Below are positions 892 through 30,430 of a DNA stretch of 36,775 nucleotides, piece after piece; the stretch's first letter is position 1, and the number at the start of each line of letters is the position of its first letter. Source of the DNA: a virus. Both the position numbers and the translations under genes were made by a program. Under the pieces are notes generated by a model, which searched no databases, was not told where the DNA came from, and was given only the letters and a program-made list of their open reading frames with translations. Location of the stretch: the IMG/VR virus record IMGVR_UViG_3300017917_000930, positions 1-36,775 of that record; one strand, 5' to 3'.

Positions 892-3800
892 ATTTGAAGA
901 TTACGGCTCTATCACACCTGTAGAACAAACCCTACGTGAGAAGACAGCTTCCAAGATTGCAGACATCCTCGGCTCAACACTAGCCAAAGGTAACAAATAC
1001 AAAGCGCAAAAGATTGCAGACACACTTGTCGGTGGTGAACAGTCTAACCTCCCGCTCGGCATGGGCGTGGCATCGATTACTCCCCTTGAGATACCGTTCG
1101 CTGTACAAGAAGGCGCCCGTGACTTCAAGGCTGGAGCAAAGAACATCAAAGAAGGTAACGCACTAGAGGGTGCGATGGATATCGGTTCTGGCGTGCTCAA
1201 CGTTGCAACTGCTTATCCTGCGGTCAAAGTAACGTCTAAAGCATTGAGCGGTTTAAGCGATAACTTAATCCAAGCGATTACTGGTAACCCAAGCGCAACG
1301 GGTGCGAAGGTGATTGATTACGCATCCCAGATGTCACCTGCTACCAAGATTGATATTGGGCCCAAAGCTAAGACGTGGAACAAATCATCCGCTGACATCT
1401 TCCAGAAGAACTACAAAGACTATCGTGCTCAGGGCATGACTCATGACCAAGCAAACAGACAAGCGTGGAAAGACTCACAGGTTGAGGGCAATCTAGGCGA
1501 AGCTGGTACATTGGGGACTCGATTCTTGCCCGGTCATGGTTTAGCTCAAGAGGTAACGGATAGAGGTTTCAAGACTGAGATGCGTCCGTACAAGGGCAAA
1601 GGCTTGCTCGATTTGTTCGACAAGCAATCCCAAGCTAAGTATGGAAAGAACTGGCGTGACTTGAGTGATAACCAGAAAAAAGCTATCCGTGACGAAGAGA
1701 TTAACTTCCGCCGTGTAAAGAATGTATCTCCACATCCTGAGTTGCTCAAAGCCTATCCAGAGATTGGTGAATATCCTGCTGAGATTAAGCGCAAGGCACG
1801 TGTTGAGGGTGGGTTCGCTCCACAGTCTAAGTACTACACAATATCGGGTCCATCAGCCGAAGAGCGAACATCAGGCGCCCTGCATGAGTTAGGTCACGCT
1901 GTACAGCATATTGAAGACTGGCCTACTGGTTCTTCTCCAAAGCTATACGACACAAAAGAATACGCAGACAAGCTCAAGAAGCTTCAAGACGAATACGAAG
2001 TCCTAGAGTACGCTTACCAGACACGCAAGAATGCTGACCGTGCTGGGGTATCTGTCGATGACTTACTTAAACAGCAAGACGCCGACATCGCTCATTTAAC
2101 TGGGGGCGCCCCACCTAATCTGAGCCCACGCATCCAAGAGATGATGGCTCGTGGTGATTTGCTCGCCAAGACTCAGCCAAGAGAAGAATTGCACGCTGAG
2201 TTTGCTAGATTGTCCCAAGAGCTAGACAGAACGCCTATGTCTCCGATGCAGGCGTATCGCCAGACGATGGGTGAAGGTCATGCTCGGATGATTGAAAACA
2301 GACGCAAGAACCTAACTGACGAAGCTCGTAAGAACAGGTTCCCAGAAGACAGCTACGACTTTGACTCGCCTGTGAATAAGTTGCGTTATGACGAGAACTT
2401 GCTTGATTCCCCTGTAGGTTATAAGTTCCCTGATGAACCACAAGGCATGTCTTTGGGTGGTATTGCTAAGGGTGCAAAGAGAGCGGTTCAGCGTAAAACT
2501 CCTGACATCATGAAGAAGGTCGGTAAGAGCAAGGCTGAGCTAGAAGCAGAGCTCCAAGCATTACGTGAGAAGGGTGCTGTTCGTCTGAAGGGTGAAGAGC
2601 CAACCAAAGAATTCGTCAACGTGGGCGCCTCTAAGAATCCTGCTGGTAAATCCAAGAAGCAGTTCGAAGAAGAGCAAGCCTATAAGCATGACATCGAGAA
2701 GACGTTTAAGTTTAAAGACCCGCAAGCTGTAAACGTCGAGCAGTTGCAAGGTGGCGTGTTAGTACCAATACCGGGTGACCGTACCCTAACTGGTGTAGAC
2801 ATCAAGTCTGTTGCAGGCGTTCCGCTTAGCTCACCCTCAACAATGTACGGGGGTCCACGCTACGGTCAGAAGAAGCTCCAAGAGGGAGCGGAAGACTTCT
2901 GGGCGTCTAATGTCTCAGCTGCCAAGGGCGCCCAAAACCGTGTCAAGTTAGCTGGTGAAAAGGGTGAGCCTGTATACGGAATGTACGTATCTATGGCTCC
3001 AGAATCTGGTCAGTTCGCCTTGCATAATGCAGACGCCTTGATTAAACAGCTCGACGCTATGAACCCAAGCAAGAAGCAAGTGCGTGAGTTCGATAAGTTG
3101 ATGCGTAACAGATTCCCAGATTTTGTGGGATTGAAAGACCCTGACCTCATGACTCAGCTACGCTCTGACTCAGAGATGCGCAAGTTCTTGGTTGACCGCA
3201 TGGAAAAGCCAACGATTAGCACAGCTCTAGACTTGCCAAGCGGATTAGCAACTCGTCATGCAATCACAGAACCAGCTCTACGTGATACGCCAACTGGTTT
3301 GACTGGTTACTCAGTCGGTCAGATGCGCCCAGATGTAGACTTAGCTTACGGTCAATACTACTTACATCCTACGTATGACACAAAGATACCGGGCAGGTTT
3401 ATGGGTGAAGCAGACATCCAGTTGCCTTGGGAATACTATTTCCCAGATGTAGCTAAGCGTATTGCTGAGTCACCAAAGCATGCAGAGCACGCCTTTGGCA
3501 CGTTCAAAGCGTCTAAAGAAGCTATCCAGCCTGTGACCCAAGAGATGGTCGACAACATCATGATGCTCAACGAGTTAGCTCGCAAAGGTATGAAAAATGG
3601 CGGTATCGTTGATGAGCAGATGTCCCAGCCAGAGATGCAGGCTCCTGACATGATGCCTCCGCTATTCAACCCATACACACAAATAGGGCTAGAAGAGAAG
3701 TTTGACGATGGCGCATCATTGCTTGAGATGGAAAAATTTTTAAGAAACCCAGAGATTATCCGACGCCCACTCGCACCAGTTCCAGAGATGACAGACGAGA

Positions 3801-4534
3801 TAACAGACTATCTGCGTGAGCGTTATGGCATGGAGTTGATTCGCCCTGAAGATAGACCAAGAAGTCCGGGGCTTGAAGACCTAACCCAGTTAAAGCATGG
3901 TGGATTGGTTCACATGTCTAACGGTGGTTTATCTGAAGAGATGGAAAGTGAATTCCCAAAATCAGAATCTTCAAGAATCAAAGCCCAGTTAGAGGACATG
4001 ATTCGTCGCAAGCGTTCAGAAGAAGAGCGTCAACCCTACAATCCGTTAGGCATTAATGAAGTTCGCATGCTAGATGCTATGACAGCTAAGTCTATGCCAG
4101 ATGAGTTAAAGCCTAACTTGATGCCTACCGTATATGGAACAATTGACGCCATGAATATGGCTGACCAAATGGCTAAGGCAAACAATGCACGCTTGCCTCA
4201 AGCAATAGCTTCTGGTCAGGGCGGTAGTAAATCAGGATTTGCCACAGGTATCATGAACATGCCAGTTGGCGATTCGACTGTGAGATTGACCGCATCCCCA
4301 TATCAATTTGGTAACAAGGCTGGTGTCGCCAACATAGGCGTTGGTGGAACAACTCCTGTAGGAAAAGGCTCGCTATCTGGTTTTTATGAATTTAATCCAG
4401 AGGTCGCTAAAGAAAGAAAAATGGGCGTGAGATATACGCTTCCATTTGCCCAAGGTGGTCTTGTTGATAGATGGGAAGCCTACGATAATCTAGCTGGTAA
4501 CGTTCAAAAAGAAATGGGCTCAGGCTATGTTTGA
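881..4534 (+). CDS. Giant polyvalent protein with HELGH metallopeptidase-like domain (1217 aa)
   Basis: The start is taken at ATG 881 (MPSKFEDYGSITP), preceded by TAGGG; the longer frame from 794 would lie deep inside terL. Residues about 170-500 resemble a large polyvalent protein-associated domain (I recall LPD23-like; not verified). They show HPELLKAYPEIGEY, then HELGHAVQHIEDWPTG at 335-350 with an HExxH zinc-peptidase signature, then REELHAEF near 434-441 and GEGHAR at 464-469 upstream of a basic helix. H438 or E440 could supply a third metal ligand (inference). A second globular region, about residues 595-895, has no family I recognise. The C-terminus holds GG motifs (MKNGGIV, LKHGGLVHMSNGGL, FAQGGLV) and acidic linkers. 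Polyvalent proteins are known as multidomain effectors carried by phages and conjugative elements into the new host. Placement between terL and portal suggests virion association. Substrate unknown. Confidence 0.8.
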   Translation: MPSKFEDYGSITPVEQTLREKTASKIADILGSTLAKGNKYKAQKIADTLVGGEQSNLPLGMGVASITPLEIPFAVQEGARDFKAGAKNIKEGNALEGAMDIGSGVLNVATAYPAVKVTSKALSGLSDNLIQAITGNPSATGAKVIDYASQMSPATKIDIGPKAKTWNKSSADIFQKNYKDYRAQGMTHDQANRQAWKDSQVEGNLGEAGTLGTRFLPGHGLAQEVTDRGFKTEMRPYKGKGLLDLFDKQSQAKYGKNWRDLSDNQKKAIRDEEINFRRVKNVSPHPELLKAYPEIGEYPAEIKRKARVEGGFAPQSKYYTISGPSAEERTSGALHELGHAVQHIEDWPTGSSPKLYDTKEYADKLKKLQDEYEVLEYAYQTRKNADRAGVSVDDLLKQQDADIAHLTGGAPPNLSPRIQEMMARGDLLAKTQPREELHAEFARLSQELDRTPMSPMQAYRQTMGEGHARMIENRRKNLTDEARKNRFPEDSYDFDSPVNKLRYDENLLDSPVGYKFPDEPQGMSLGGIAKGAKRAVQRKTPDIMKKVGKSKAELEAELQALREKGAVRLKGEEPTKEFVNVGASKNPAGKSKKQFEEEQAYKHDIEKTFKFKDPQAVNVEQLQGGVLVPIPGDRTLTGVDIKSVAGVPLSSPSTMYGGPRYGQKKLQEGAEDFWASNVSAAKGAQNRVKLAGEKGEPVYGMYVSMAPESGQFALHNADALIKQLDAMNPSKKQVREFDKLMRNRFPDFVGLKDPDLMTQLRSDSEMRKFLVDRMEKPTISTALDLPSGLATRHAITEPALRDTPTGLTGYSVGQMRPDVDLAYGQYYLHPTYDTKIPGRFMGEADIQLPWEYYFPDVAKRIAESPKHAEHAFGTFKASKEAIQPVTQEMVDNIMMLNELARKGMKNGGIVDEQMSQPEMQAPDMMPPLFNPYTQIGLEEKFDDGASLLEMEKFLRNPEIIRRPLAPVPEMTDEITDYLRERYGMELIRPEDRPRSPGLEDLTQLKHGGLVHMSNGGLSEEMESEFPKSESSRIKAQLEDMIRRKRSEEERQPYNPLGINEVRMLDAMTAKSMPDELKPNLMPTVYGTIDAMNMADQMAKANNARLPQAIASGQGGSKSGFATGIMNMPVGDSTVRLTASPYQFGNKAGVANIGVGGTTPVGKGSLSGFYEFNPEVAKERKMGVRYTLPFAQGGLVDRWEAYDNLAGNVQKEMGSGYV

Positions 4535-16849: not shown

Positions 16850-17908
16850 ATGGCTTATTCAGGTACTGTTGGAACCACGGTTATTGATGTACAAACGCTG
16901 ATTGACCATGGCGCTAGACGTGCTGGCAAGCTTGCAGAAGAGTTAACCTCTGAGCAAGTACAGTCTGCCAAAGAATCCCTCTTCTTTTTGCTATCAAATA
17001 TGGCAAATAGAGGTATTCAGTACTGGTGTATTGAAAAAGAAGTGTATGGTTTAAACATCGATAAGTATGTTTATGAGTTACCTTTGGGTACCGTAGACGT
17101 CTTAAATGCTAACTATCGCACGCTCACACGCCTAACTAACGCACCTTTTAGCTCATCAGGTACTGTTGATAACGCTTTTGATGGAAATGTGGATACTGTA
17201 TGTCAACTGGCAACAAATACTGGCTTCATAGGCATCAATCTGGGTACAAACAACGCCCAGTATGTCGGTACCGTAGGCATTTTGCCTGCCATCACAGGCT
17301 CTGTAACATGCACCATTGAGTATTCCAACGACAATATTACGTGGAGTACGCTCTACGACGTAGGTCAAGTCGCTTGGGTTAACAATGAGTGGCAATATTA
17401 CGAGATTTTGGCTGGTCAAACCGCCCAATATTACCGTTTGAAGCAATCGGCGGGTGCAAATATGGGTGTTCGTGAGCTTGTTTTTGGCACTATGCCAATG
17501 GCAATCCCTCTAGCACGTATGAATCGTGACGATTACACCAATTTGCCAAACAGAAACTTTACATCTAACCGTCCTTTGCAATATTGGTTCGATAGAACGA
17601 TTCCAAGACCGTCCATGTATCTATGGCCAGTCCCCTCTGACCCATTCCCACAGATTGAATTGTGGCGTCATCGCCAAATTATGGATGTGGGTGACTTATC
17701 TGGTGAGCTTGAGATACCACAGCGTTGGTATTTGGCGATACAAAACATGCTCGCTCATCAAATGGCAATGGAATTACCAAACGTGGACGGAACACGCATT
17801 ACTTACCTTGAGCAACAGGGTGAAAAGTACTGGAATATCGCTGAGCAGGAAGAAAGAGATAAGTCTCCTATATTCTTCTCTCCAAACATTAGCGTATATA
17901 CGAGGTAA
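16850..17908 (+). CDS. Head-tail adaptor (P22 gp4-like) with inserted discoidin-like domain
   Basis: A 352-residue protein. N-terminal helices (VIDVQTLIDHGARRAGKLAE, then ESLFFLLSNMANRGIQYWCI) and the strand YVYELPLGTVDVLNANYR match P22 gp4-type adaptors that assemble under the portal ring. The family resumes at about residue 215 with NRDDYTNLPNRNFTSNRPLQ, YLWPVPSDPFPQIELWRHR and IPQRWYLAIQNMLAHQMAME. Residues about 94-213 instead form an F5/8 type C (discoidin/galactose-binding) pattern: DNAFDGNVDT, GFIGINLGTNNAQYVGTVGI, CTIEYSNDNITW and AQYYRLKQSAGANMGVRELV. The adaptor fold is thus split by a carbohydrate- or surface-binding type module, probably displayed outside the neck. Domain reading is by eye. 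Confidence 0.8.
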   Translation: MAYSGTVGTTVIDVQTLIDHGARRAGKLAEELTSEQVQSAKESLFFLLSNMANRGIQYWCIEKEVYGLNIDKYVYELPLGTVDVLNANYRTLTRLTNAPFSSSGTVDNAFDGNVDTVCQLATNTGFIGINLGTNNAQYVGTVGILPAITGSVTCTIEYSNDNITWSTLYDVGQVAWVNNEWQYYEILAGQTAQYYRLKQSAGANMGVRELVFGTMPMAIPLARMNRDDYTNLPNRNFTSNRPLQYWFDRTIPRPSMYLWPVPSDPFPQIELWRHRQIMDVGDLSGELEIPQRWYLAIQNMLAHQMAMELPNVDGTRITYLEQQGEKYWNIAEQEERDKSPIFFSPNISVYTR

Positions 17909-27371: not shown

Positions 27372-27605
27372 ATGGACTGGCAAACCCTCATCAACGTTGG
27401 TTGTGGATTAATACTAGCTATGATGGGCTGGTTTGCCCGTGAGCTATGGGACATGGTTCAAAAGCTTAAAGATGACGTCCAAAAGCTGGAGGTCAAAATG
27501 AGTGAAGAGTACTTAAAGAAAACGGACGTGAATAATCGATTTGACAAAATTGATGCAATTCTTGGCAAAATTTTTGACAAATTGGATAGTAAAGTCGATA
27601 AATGA
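27372..27605 (+). CDS. Small membrane protein with coiled coil (holin-like candidate, 77 aa)
   Basis: One transmembrane segment near the N-terminus (LINVGCGLILAMMGWFAREL, about residues 6-25) is followed by a long charged coiled coil (MVQKLKDDVQKLEVKM) and a second helix ending in KIFDKLDSKVDK. The topology, short N-terminus outside and coiled coil in the cytoplasm or the reverse, is not settled. It opens the lysis/envelope cassette and its stop overlaps the next start as ATGA. It could be an accessory holin or antiholin; no lytic function can be shown from sequence. Confidence 0.72.
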   Translation: MDWQTLINVGCGLILAMMGWFARELWDMVQKLKDDVQKLEVKMSEEYLKKTDVNNRFDKIDAILGKIFDKLDSKVDK

Positions 27606-28075
27606 AAAACCTTACGCTTTTTTTGGTTGGGTTACTAATAGGTGGGCTAACCGCTAAAGCGATAGCGCAAGACACCACCATTAATTACAAGGGTCAGCCA
27701 CCCCCAACGGCAATGGCTCCTAGCATGTCAGCATTCTCTCAGGATGTCTGCGCAGTTCCCGTAGCTGGCGCTGTTAGCTCTACAGTCATCGGCTTTTCTG
27801 GTGGCACGATGTATAAAGATGAGAACTGCGAGCGCATTAAGTTAGCCAAGACTCTCAATGACTTAGGGCTTAAGGTGTCTGCGGTAGCGGTTTTATGCTC
27901 AGATAACAGAGTTTGGGATGCCATGATGATGTCTGGCACCCCATGTCCTATAGATGGTCTCGTTGGCGACGCAGCACGTAACGAGTGGATAAAGAGACAC
28001 CCTAAGAGATTTGAGAAGCTATATGGTACGGTTCCTCCTTTGGTTTCTGTTACTCCTTCTGCCGAGGCTAAGTGA
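27602..28075 (+). CDS. Exported protein with signal peptide, unknown (157 aa)
   Basis: MKNLTLFLVGLLIGGLTAKA followed by IAQDT is a clear Sec signal peptide with an AIA cleavage site at about residue 22/23. The mature part is Pro-rich at first, then a hydrophobic Gly/Ser segment (VAGAVSSTVIGFSGGTMYKD), then ENCERIKLAKTLNDLGLKVS and AVAVLCSDNRVWDAMMMSGT with Cys residues that could form disulphides in the periplasm. I recall similar ENCER...LCxDxRVW proteins in other phages, placed in lysis or tail regions, without known function. The last 53 bases overlap the next gene in another frame, as in spanin gene pairs. Confidence 0.75.
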   Translation: MKNLTLFLVGLLIGGLTAKAIAQDTTINYKGQPPPTAMAPSMSAFSQDVCAVPVAGAVSSTVIGFSGGTMYKDENCERIKLAKTLNDLGLKVSAVAVLCSDNRVWDAMMMSGTPCPIDGLVGDAARNEWIKRHPKRFEKLYGTVPPLVSVTPSAEAK

Positions 28076-29003
28076 TGCTCAATATAATGCGTGCTATTGC
28101 ACAACCCCTTGGACTGCAAACCAAACCTTCGGGCAATCTTGCACGGCAAACGCCGACTGCTGGGCTTGTGCACCGGGGGCTTACTCAACCATATGGCAAC
28201 AAGCGTTCTGTAGTGGCTACCAAGCTCCACAAGTCGTCGCTTGCACCCAAGAAACCCAGTTCCAAACTCAAAGTTGCCCAGTTAATTACAGCGGAATCAT
28301 TACGCAAACCCGCACAAAAATATGTCCAAGTGGAGTTTGGACAGAGTGGCAAACAACGCAAAACACCTGTACGCCGAACCCACCAACATGCCAAGTAACG
28401 ACAGAATCTCAAACTCTAGCTTGTCAGATAGGCTATACGGGGAGCATTACCCAGACTCGTTCCTCGACTTGCCCGAATCCGTACGGGCAACCGATATTCG
28501 GAGCTTGGGTGACTACATCGGACAGTTGCAAAAAATCGATAACCAACACAACAAACCCTGCGTCGCCTGTATCGCCCCTGAATCCAGCTTCCAACATATC
28601 TGCCCCAACAATCCCATCCTCACCTGCAATTGCGCCAACCCCGTCGATTGCCCAGAGCTCGGCTCCGACCCCGATGGCAACTCCAGAAGTGAAAACGGAA
28701 ACCAAAACAGAGACGAAGCAGGAAGTAAAAACAGAAACGAAGACAGATGCCCCAACCACGACGGCTTCTCCGACAACATCGAATACATCAAGCCCAAGAT
28801 TAGTAACTCCCCTTGGCCTTGCGTTGTCGTTGGAGCTATTTGTGAAACCAGCTTTAACCCAGCCGAGTCTTTTTCCAGACTTAGCGATAAAACAGGAATT
28901 GCCAATAGAGATGCTGATGCAGGACAAGACGGTAATGAGTCTTATGTTTCAGCCAACCATTGAGCAAAATTTAGAAACTCAAGATTTAGGATTTGAGCAA
29001 TGA
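28023..29003 (+). CDS. Secreted Cys-rich protein with two TSP1-like repeats (326 aa)
   Basis: The start at ATG 28023 gives a textbook signal peptide (MVRFLLWFLLLLLPRLSDA, cleavage before Gln20). A TTG four codons upstream (28011) is an alternative. The signal peptide is encoded wholly inside the preceding gene in another frame. Mature residues 20-73 hold Cys at 24, 26, 40, 46, 49 and 63. Then two related repeats, residues 74-116 and 123-169, share C-x10-C-x(6)-GxITQTR-x3-C-P ... W ... C, similar to thrombospondin type 1 units. A Pro/Ser/Thr linker and a Lys/Glu/Thr repeat (222-242) follow, then a hydrophobic stretch near 262-275. The frame is confirmed by synonymous third-base differences between repeats. 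Likely periplasmic or outer-surface; role in lysis or superinfection is unknown. Confidence 0.75.
   Translation: MVRFLLWFLLLLLPRLSDAQYNACYCTTPWTANQTFGQSCTANADCWACAPGAYSTIWQQAFCSGYQAPQVVACTQETQFQTQSCPVNYSGIITQTRTKICPSGVWTEWQTTQNTCTPNPPTCQVTTESQTLACQIGYTGSITQTRSSTCPNPYGQPIFGAWVTTSDSCKKSITNTTNPASPVSPLNPASNISAPTIPSSPAIAPTPSIAQSSAPTPMATPEVKTETKTETKQEVKTETKTDAPTTTASPTTSNTSSPRLVTPLGLALSLELFVKPALTQPSLFPDLAIKQELPIEMLMQDKTVMSLMFQPTIEQNLETQDLGFEQ
28242..28529 (+). repeat. Two Cys-rich TSP1-like repeats
   Basis: Copy 1 at 28242-28370 and copy 2 at 28389-28529. The shared ITQTR (28299-28313 and 28446-28460) is spelled with four of five codons different at the third base only, which shows selection on this reading frame. 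Confidence 0.7.
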
Positions 29004-29452
29004 GCGATACAGAAAAGTTAGATAAAGTACAAGGATTCGTAGAAAAGTGGGTGTCATGGGCTAAACAAAATACCATGATTGCTGGCTTTATTATCACTGG
29101 AATCCCCGTAATTGGCGGAGCAGGATACACCGCTATTACTAAATTTAATGAAGTCAAAGACATGTATGAGAGCTTTAGCGATGTTGCTGGAGATGCCAGC
29201 GTTGCTAAGCGCAAAGCAATTGCCTTAGAAGAAAAGGTGCAGGAACAGCGTGAGACTATTATTAAGCTTCAGGAGCGTCTTGCAGAGGCGCTAATGGCAT
29301 CCCGTGAAGCCAAAATTCTTTCGGAATCCAATCAAAAAGAGCTACGTGCTGGATTAAACGCTCAAAAGACAGAACTTGAGGTAACTGCAAACTCTCTTAA
29401 ACAAGAAATGAACTCTGTTCGCCGTGCAACCACTAACCGTTTAGGACAATAA
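29000..29452 (+). CDS. Membrane-anchored coiled-coil protein (150 aa)
   Basis: ATGA overlap with the previous gene. One transmembrane helix (MIAGFIITGIPVIGGAGYTA, about 26-45) is followed by about 85 residues of charged coiled coil (KAIALEEKVQEQRETIIKLQ and onward), ending basic. An N-terminal anchor plus long periplasmic coiled coil is the layout of inner-membrane spanins (Rz-like). The helix could equally belong to a holin accessory. No outer-membrane lipoprotein partner with a lipobox is seen, so the spanin call is only a hypothesis. Confidence 0.7.
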   Translation: MSDTEKLDKVQGFVEKWVSWAKQNTMIAGFIITGIPVIGGAGYTAITKFNEVKDMYESFSDVAGDASVAKRKAIALEEKVQEQRETIIKLQERLAEALMASREAKILSESNQKELRAGLNAQKTELEVTANSLKQEMNSVRRATTNRLGQ

Positions 29453-29453
29453 C

Positions 29454-29957
29454 ATGCTATCTCTATTTTCAACCCTAGGTGGTCTATTAATCTCTGGCTT
29501 ACCCAAAGTTCTTGAATACTTCCAAGACAAGTCTGACAAGGCTCATGAGCTCAAATTAGCGCAAATGCAGACTGAGCGTGAGCTCCAAATGTTAGAACGT
29601 GGCTATATTGCGCAAGCCAAAGTTGAAGAAATCCGTACTGACCAGATTGCTATCAATGCAGATATGGAAATGACAAAAGCAGCTTATGAGCACGATGCCA
29701 AAGTCCTAGAAAAAGCTGCCCCTTGGGTGTCTTCATTTGTGGGTACAGTGCGCCCAGTGGTGACTTATTTGTTCGTTTTAGAGCTTTTTGTTATCAACGT
29801 CGGGATTGGTATTTATGCGTTTACACACCCCGGTATTATTACCAATATTGAGGACTTGATTAAGATTTCCCAAGAGATTTTCAGTGACGATGAGATGGCT
29901 ATGCTAGGTGGCATCATCGGTTTCTGGTTCGGCTCACGTAATTGGTCTAAAAAGTGA
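29454..29957 (+). CDS. Putative holin, 3TM GTA-type (167 aa)
   Basis: An N-terminal hydrophobic or amphipathic stretch (LSLFSTLGGLLISGLPKVLE) leads into a long charged helix (HELKLAQMQTERELQMLERG). Two C-terminal transmembrane segments follow (VRPVVTYLFVLELFVINVGI and MLGGIIGFWFGSRNW). The order helix, WVSSFVGTVRPVVTY, then GFWFGSRNWSK is that of the three-TM holin family described from gene-transfer agents (GTA_holin_3TM, from memory). Holins form the membrane lesions that release endolysin, encoded next door with a GTGA overlap. Confidence 0.78.
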   Translation: MLSLFSTLGGLLISGLPKVLEYFQDKSDKAHELKLAQMQTERELQMLERGYIAQAKVEEIRTDQIAINADMEMTKAAYEHDAKVLEKAAPWVSSFVGTVRPVVTYLFVLELFVINVGIGIYAFTHPGIITNIEDLIKISQEIFSDDEMAMLGGIIGFWFGSRNWSKK

Positions 29958-30430
29958 AAGTAAGCGACAAAGCCATCAAAATGATAAAGCACCATGAGGG
30001 GGTCAAAACACGCCCCTATCAGTGCCCTGCTTTATTGTGGACGGTTGGCGTTGGGCATGTAATTGACCCAACTCACGCTAGAGTTCCATTGGCTGAGCGC
30101 AAGAATTTACCAATTCCTGAGGGGTGGGATAGAACCCTGACGATGGATGAGGTGGACGATATACTTAAGAAAGATTTAGCAAGGTTTGAGGCGGGTGTTT
30201 TAAGGTTATGCCCAAAAGGCAAAAAACAGGGGCAATTTGATGCTTTGGTTAGTTTTGCCTTTAACGTCGGTCTTGGCAACCTACAAAACAGTACTTTACG
30301 GATGAAGCACAATCGTGAAGACTATGAGGGTGCATCTGAAGAATTCTTAAAGTGGAACAAAGCTGGAGGCAAGGTTTTACGAGGTTTAACGATACGCCGA
30401 GAAGACGAGAAGGCGTTGTATTTATCTTGA
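29954..30430 (+). CDS. Endolysin, GH24 lysozyme
   Basis: The start codon is GTG at 29954, overlapping the holin stop (GTGA). The 158-residue protein is a single GH24 muramidase. Catalytic residues fall at the canonical spacing E-x8-(D/C)-x5-T: Glu15 (KHHEG), Cys24 (in place of Asp), and Thr30 (TVGVGH). The Cys variant is known from P22/lambdoid relatives. Other marks are QFDALVSFAFNVGLGNLQNS, the conserved Ala-Phe-Asn region, and GLTIRREDEKALYL at the end. There is no signal peptide or SAR helix, so it needs the holin to reach the peptidoglycan, where it cleaves between MurNAc and GlcNAc. Confidence 0.93.
   Translation: MKVSDKAIKMIKHHEGVKTRPYQCPALLWTVGVGHVIDPTHARVPLAERKNLPIPEGWDRTLTMDEVDDILKKDLARFEAGVLRLCPKGKKQGQFDALVSFAFNVGLGNLQNSTLRMKHNREDYEGASEEFLKWNKAGGKVLRGLTIRREDEKALYLS

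Follow-up and report, generated by a model that had tools for sequence, protein, structure and literature searches.

What does a secreted, cysteine-rich protein with internal repeats do for a phage? This question is raised by an open reading frame (ORF), here called X, at positions 28023 to 29003 of a 36,775-nucleotide viral sequence (IMG/VR record IMGVR_UViG_3300017917_000930, positions 1 to 36,775; referred to as the window). A sequence-only reading had noticed two repeats at 28242 to 28529, compared them to thrombospondin type 1 (TSP1) modules, and proposed that the secreted product modifies the infected cell surface or seals receptors. Here, we describe the protein, its relatives, an overlapping frame within it, and its genomic neighborhood, and we argue that a role in lysis is the best available explanation. 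X, its neighbors, and the overlapping frames described below all lie on the plus strand.

Domain layout of X and its four-cysteine repeats

X is a predicted protein of 326 amino acids (aa) that begins 53 bases within the 3′ end of the preceding gene, P2. Its N-terminus is a Sec-type signal sequence, MVRFLLWFLLLLLPRLSDA (28023 to 28079; cleavage site placed by eye), and relatives keep a hydrophobic N-terminus. The signal is followed by a head with characteristic cysteine spacings (C24 to C63; 28092 to 28211), two repeats of four cysteines each (C74 to C116, 28242 to 28370, and C123 to C169, 28389 to 28529), a linker (28530 to 28811), and a conserved C-terminal segment (LALSLELFVKP..FPDL..QELP in alignment A1; 28812 to 29000). 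The head, a third cysteine-rich module N-terminal of the repeats, is unrelated to them. The linker, which is rich in Pro, Thr, and Ser and also in Lys and Glu, is predicted to be disordered (pLDDT of <50). The codon signature of the X frame is found in the repeats and the C-terminus, where X third positions change fastest. Searches of Pfam and PHROG returned no family match for X.

The two repeats are real, and their reported span corresponds exactly to C74 to C169 of X. Local alignment of repeat 1 with repeat 2 (BLOSUM62) gave a score of 98, compared to a mean of 26 (standard deviation, 5.5; maximum, 56) in 2,000 shuffles. Four of the five codons of the shared ITQTR motif differ by silent third-base changes (ATT ACG CAA ACC CGC versus ATT ACC CAG ACT CGT), as had also been noticed. 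The signal sequence, the repeat score, the silent changes, and the recurrence of the module in relatives bear out the claim of a secreted, duplicated, and selected disulfide-type module in a phage protein. Across the 82 loci described below, the repeats follow the pattern C-x10-C-x15/16-C-x14-19-C, with one invariant Trp between Cys3 and Cys4 and 3 to 6 residues between repeats; repeat 2 is the most conserved. An AlphaFold2 model of both repeats, based on 67 sequences, had a pLDDT of 91 and contained three strands per repeat. Our guess is that the disulfides pair as C1-C3/C2-C4 within a sheet of three strands.

The proposed TSP1 identity did not withstand comparison, as neither a TSP1 profile, motif, or cysteine pattern nor a TSP1 structure was found. 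In the profile comparison, only 1 of 67 family members reached a TSP1 family (TSP1_ADAMTS; E value, 8.4). A profile search of PDB sequences yielded chance matches and no TSP1 (best match, kallikrein-6; E value, 0.08, taken as chance). Foldseek, which is weak on tiny disulfide domains, found nothing significant in the PDB for the repeat model and no TSP1 among the 50 matches listed. The repeats might still be genuine but divergent TSP1 domains: TSP1 domains (PF00090/PF19028/PF19030) are likewise small, tandem, extracellular disulfide-type modules of ∼45 to 50 residues, the three short strands predicted for each X repeat equal the strand number of the TSP1 fold, which has a layered Cys-Trp-Arg core, and G-x-ITQTR-x3-C bears a superficial resemblance. 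However, TSP1 has six cysteines forming three disulfides, whereas the X repeats have four conserved cysteines, and it carries WxxWxxW ahead of the first cysteine as well as CSxTCG, neither of which occurs in the X repeats, where Cys1 is followed by x10-C and the Trp is misplaced. With no match in profile or structure, we consider divergent TSP1 domains extremely unlikely, and we rejected TSP1 homology on the Pfam, PDB-sequence, and Foldseek searches, although a remote resemblance in fold is conceivable.

A modular family in freshwater phages

X is a member of a previously undescribed modular secreted family that occurs in many freshwater phages. IMG/VR was scanned first with X and afterward with an alignment; together with MW202481.1 and the window, these scans gave 82 loci that carry the gene. 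Many of these are near-identical, so locus counts are not counts of independent lineages. Members combine exchangeable cysteine-rich heads of several types, mostly two and otherwise three to five repeats, a Pro/Thr linker, and the conserved C-terminus. Mapped onto a tree of Z, the protein encoded downstream of X, the family shows no fewer than 9 switches of head type and no fewer than 14 of repeat number. The switches of head type suggest that heads are exchanged.

One member had been annotated previously. The X homologue of the Manatee Spring podovirus (MW202481.1, 35869 to 36975; UOF77515.1) contains both repeats, shares 53% identity over the match, and is labeled “transport protein tonB.” We put this TonB identity down to the Pro/Lys-rich linker, and it is probably a misannotation. 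Unlike X of the window, this homologue lacks Y, the overlapping frame described below. Outside phages, we observed a single copy of the four-cysteine repeat in a 907-aa surface-like protein from a small-genome bacterial metagenome-assembled genome (L086:3999-6722); 286 further sampled genomes from the same phylum gave no match. Plasmids gave one weak match (E value, 0.1).

An overlapping frame under selection in the linker

Within X, the −1 frame (Y) is open for 225 codons (28286 to 28963), with candidate ATG starts at 28322 and 28388. Shuffling synonymous codons within the gene gave an expectation of 90 codons (P < 0.002). X is alone in this excess among the 28 genes of the window, the other 27 being without it, and the openness of the Y frame reached a P value of <0.05 in 70 of the 82 relatives. 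Elsewhere in the window, the gene at 16850 to 17908 has a +1 frame without stops over 127 codons, compared to 64 expected (P = 0.018), a borderline value given that 28 genes were tested.

In the linker, the Y frame encodes the motif H-x-C-x7-C-x-C-x4-5-C, which reads HICPNNPILTCNCANPVDC in the window (28595 to 28651); many members add C-P-x5-C-x4-C-x3-C. The C-x-C motif occurs in 74 of 82 loci, and the remaining 8 are without the first Y motif. In alignment A4, which covers the core, H28, C30, N33, C38, and C40 are invariant and C46 is nearly so; in an alignment of divergent Y sequences, H26 and seven cysteines are invariant. Searches for homologues of Y returned no Pfam match, no significant PHROG match, and no match in the PDB or in annotated phages. 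The matches obtained were in contigs that hold X, plus one new contig (L128) with P2 and Y.

Substitution patterns in the linker follow the Y frame. We numbered linker codons after the last cysteine and defined the core as +25 to +54. Here, rates at X positions 1, 2, and 3 were 0.068, 0.173, and 0.103, and X position 2 is position 3 of Y. Among 24 informative disjoint pairs, whose phylogenetic independence is not guaranteed, 20 had their highest rate at position 2 (sign test, P = 0.0015). Changed core codons were synonymous in Y in 46% of cases versus 22% in X (Fisher’s test, P = 8e-7). The gene for Z, which lies in the frame of Y further downstream, has the same positional pattern and provides a positive control. 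Purifying selection acts on the Y frame, and the linker DNA is doubly coding by this measure; an overlapping gene, with a putative product, is strongly indicated. We rejected antisense coding as the reason why X position 2 changes fast: the third positions of one antisense phase coincide with those of Y, but the rate order and amino acid conservation fit that phase worse.

When linker codons +20 to +84 were considered together, the excess of position 2 over position 3 was smaller (P = 0.054); the constrained core of Y is therefore short. This marginal value, the constraint that X itself places on the sequence, and the nonindependence of related loci speak for the view that the open frame merely reflects the codon usage and composition of X, with no gene behind it. 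The shuffles preserved codons, however, the 27 control genes behave differently, Y third positions are the fastest in the core, and the Cys and His residues of Y stay invariant across divergent linkers. In view of these results, we regard the by-product explanation as highly unlikely.

Possible routes to translation of Y

No Shine-Dalgarno site was seen for Y. NTG codons in its frame occur at Thr-Cys and x-Trp positions of the last X repeat, because X is conserved at those positions. Frameshifting into Y is a possible route that gains no support from the sequence: there is no conserved slippery heptamer, and the RNA structure is weak (−6.7 kcal/mol).

A third ORF, the tentative Q (28075 to 28398; +1 relative to X), starts at the stop codon of P2 (TGATG). 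Of 64 loci, 63 have an ATG between −3 and +9 bases of this stop, across three different stop codons. In the window and many relatives, Q ends ∼10 bases beyond a Y-frame ATG, an arrangement that would fit coupled reinitiation. We considered Q as a second overlapping gene: its start is conserved, yet constraint is at most weak over the first 15 codons and no protein-level constraint was detected past ∼15 codons, and we left Q as tentative. In several relatives (L003, L025, L028, and L041), Q begins with MFKRLVMLVRGLMGC or a near variant, which may be a lipobox, and the remainder is Pro/Lys-rich.

A conserved neighborhood in the lysis region

In the window, the gene order is small membrane protein, P2, X, Z, holin-like protein, endolysin. 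The unit starts with a 77-aa membrane/coiled-coil protein (27372 to 27605; PHROG 12220, E value of 1e-9) that resembles an Rz-like spanin family only weakly (E value, 0.044). P2 (27602 to 28075; 157 aa) is a secreted protein with conserved cysteines. Z (29000 to 29452) has a single N-terminal hydrophobic segment and a long coiled coil and ends in NRLGQ. It is followed by a holin-like protein (29454 to 29957), which matches PHROG 6637 (E value, 1e-17) and the holin family PHROG 3427 (E value, 4e-4) and weakly matches GTA_holin_3TM, and by a phage lysozyme-type endolysin (29954 to 30430; PF00959, E value of 3e-37; PHROG 7).

This arrangement recurs. Of the 82 loci, 76 have P2 next to X and 72 have Z immediately 3′ of X, with X and Z mostly sharing 4 bases. 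In the window and complete relatives (for example, L001 to L004), holin and endolysin genes come after Z. The adjacency of X to the holin and endolysin genes points to lysis. The unit is situated shortly downstream of tail fiber-like genes. There was no sign of a promoter for X alone (three promoter-like sites versus five expected by chance). The endolysin type varies within otherwise syntenic cassettes, being a lysozyme in the window (29954-30430) and an unrelated peptidase-like protein in L001 (5867-6328). L001 also has a GIY-YIG-like ORF between P2 and X (3385-4047), and it seems that a mobile gene was inserted exactly at the P2/X junction.

By sequence, the layout of Z (N-terminal membrane segment followed by a coiled coil) is like that of an i-spanin, a type II inner-membrane protein with a periplasmic coiled coil, and there was no significant match to a spanin family. 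A lipoprotein scan of all frames of the window gave no convincing candidate, only one weak antisense ORF. On the plus strand, no lipobox protein with a signal-like N-terminus was found, and X of the window has no lipobox. Neither an o-spanin, which is an outer-membrane lipoprotein, nor a u-spanin was therefore found in the window, and we rejected a lipoprotein or o-spanin on the same scan.

Homologues of P2 are present in pelagiphages and roseophages. In HTVC202P, HTVC033P, Mosig, Baldr, HTVC115P, HTVC023P, and an uncultured Autographiviridae phage, P2 and Z flank a different secreted protein. The order of these P2-middle-Z units, exemplified by HTVC033P gp46-gp45-gp44 (annotated as hypothetical or putative carbohydrate binding), is that of the window. 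Freshwater and pelagiphage Z are homologous (HHalign probability of 96%; E value, 4e-9) and have a common N-R/P-L-G tail. Like X, the pelagiphage middle protein is secreted and has a head that is joined by a long linker to a C-terminal segment. It differs in its heads, which are often weakly carbohydrate-binding module (CBM)-like, or of other types, rather than four-cysteine repeats; its linker is acidic, its C-terminal segment is its own, and it is mostly without the Y frame. No relation between the C-termini of X and the middle proteins was detectable (HHalign E value, 0.48), and we rejected their homology on this value. In HTVC033P, HTVC023P, CRP-207, and CRP-810, a gene for a lysozyme or an M15 endolysin is found close to P2; some P2 loci adjoin terminase rather than endolysin.

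Discussion

Phages that appear to be without spanins are an open problem: ∼13% of surveyed phages have no identifiable spanin, and spanin function could be provided by proteins that are anchored in other ways (PMC6139136). Given this possibility, and with no convincing lipoprotein in the window, we prefer a bridging role in lysis. Our main reading, to which we assign a probability of roughly 0.4, is that X is a modular lysis-region protein, that P2-X-Z is an envelope-bridging lysis complex, and that the linker of X also encodes Y. X would be exported by Sec and be disulfide-rich, and its head and repeats may bind a glycan or protein in the outer envelope. The flexible linker would join the repeats to the conserved C-terminal segment, and P2, X, and the inner-membrane coiled-coil protein Z would most likely form a complex that bridges the envelope. 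Such a complex could help to disrupt the outer membrane at lysis, taking the place of a two-component spanin with no lipoprotein involved. The DNA of the linker would be doubly coding, its −1 frame giving Y, a small Cys/His-rich and probably metal-binding protein. Within this scheme, we infer ligand binding, the P2-X-Z complex, the lysis role, and the translation of Y.

Two other functions deserve consideration. X could alter the infected cell surface, as the sequence-only reading proposed, acting in the manner of a lectin to mask receptors (superinfection exclusion) or to keep progeny off debris. Its secretion signal agrees with this proposal, exchangeable heads and a variable repeat number would fit a binding protein that tracks host surfaces, and the pelagiphage middle proteins at the same position often have weakly CBM-like heads. 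The tight coupling of X to Z, P2, and the holin and endolysin genes, and the missing sign of its own promoter, argue against such a function, which we find rather doubtful. Alternatively, X, with P2, could be a virion or tail-associated adhesion protein, given its modular binding heads and the tail fiber-like genes next to the unit; we think this very unlikely, because virion proteins that assemble in the cytoplasm do not usually carry Sec signals, as X and P2 both do, and because Z is a membrane protein.

Returning to the envelope-bridging reading, a three-gene unit of P2, a secreted middle protein, and the i-spanin-like Z is common to freshwater phages and pelagiphages; with the secreted partner in place of the lipoprotein, it would be a testable candidate for how phages without an identifiable spanin open the outer membrane. 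Y, in turn, would be a conserved gene hidden in a low-complexity linker and missed by standard annotation, a case in which a disordered linker may be able to carry a second protein. More speculatively, P2-X-Z may be a means of lipoprotein-free outer-membrane disruption in phages that infect abundant aquatic bacteria and otherwise look spanin-less, with the freshwater X linker overprinted by a metal-binding Y expressed from the same mRNA, perhaps by P2-to-Q-to-Y coupling or by frameshifting. Taken as a whole, we judge this broader proposal fairly unlikely.

The two-component Rz/Rz1 spanins (PMC6139136) offer a comparison for both parts of the main reading. They differ from P2-X-Z in number, being encoded by two genes rather than three, and P2-X-Z has no sequence match to known spanins; moreover, X and P2 carry Sec signals without a conserved lipobox. 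Both systems are in the lysis region, however, Z resembles the i-spanin by layout, and Rz/Rz1, like X, includes a partner with a disordered, Pro-rich linker and makes use of overlapping frames. Among overprinted or embedded phage genes, Y differs from Rz1 in being Cys/His-rich rather than a lipoprotein, and its host gene X is not an i-spanin. As with Rz1 within Rz, Y would be read in a second frame of a gene from the lysis region, over a stretch whose host-frame product is disordered.
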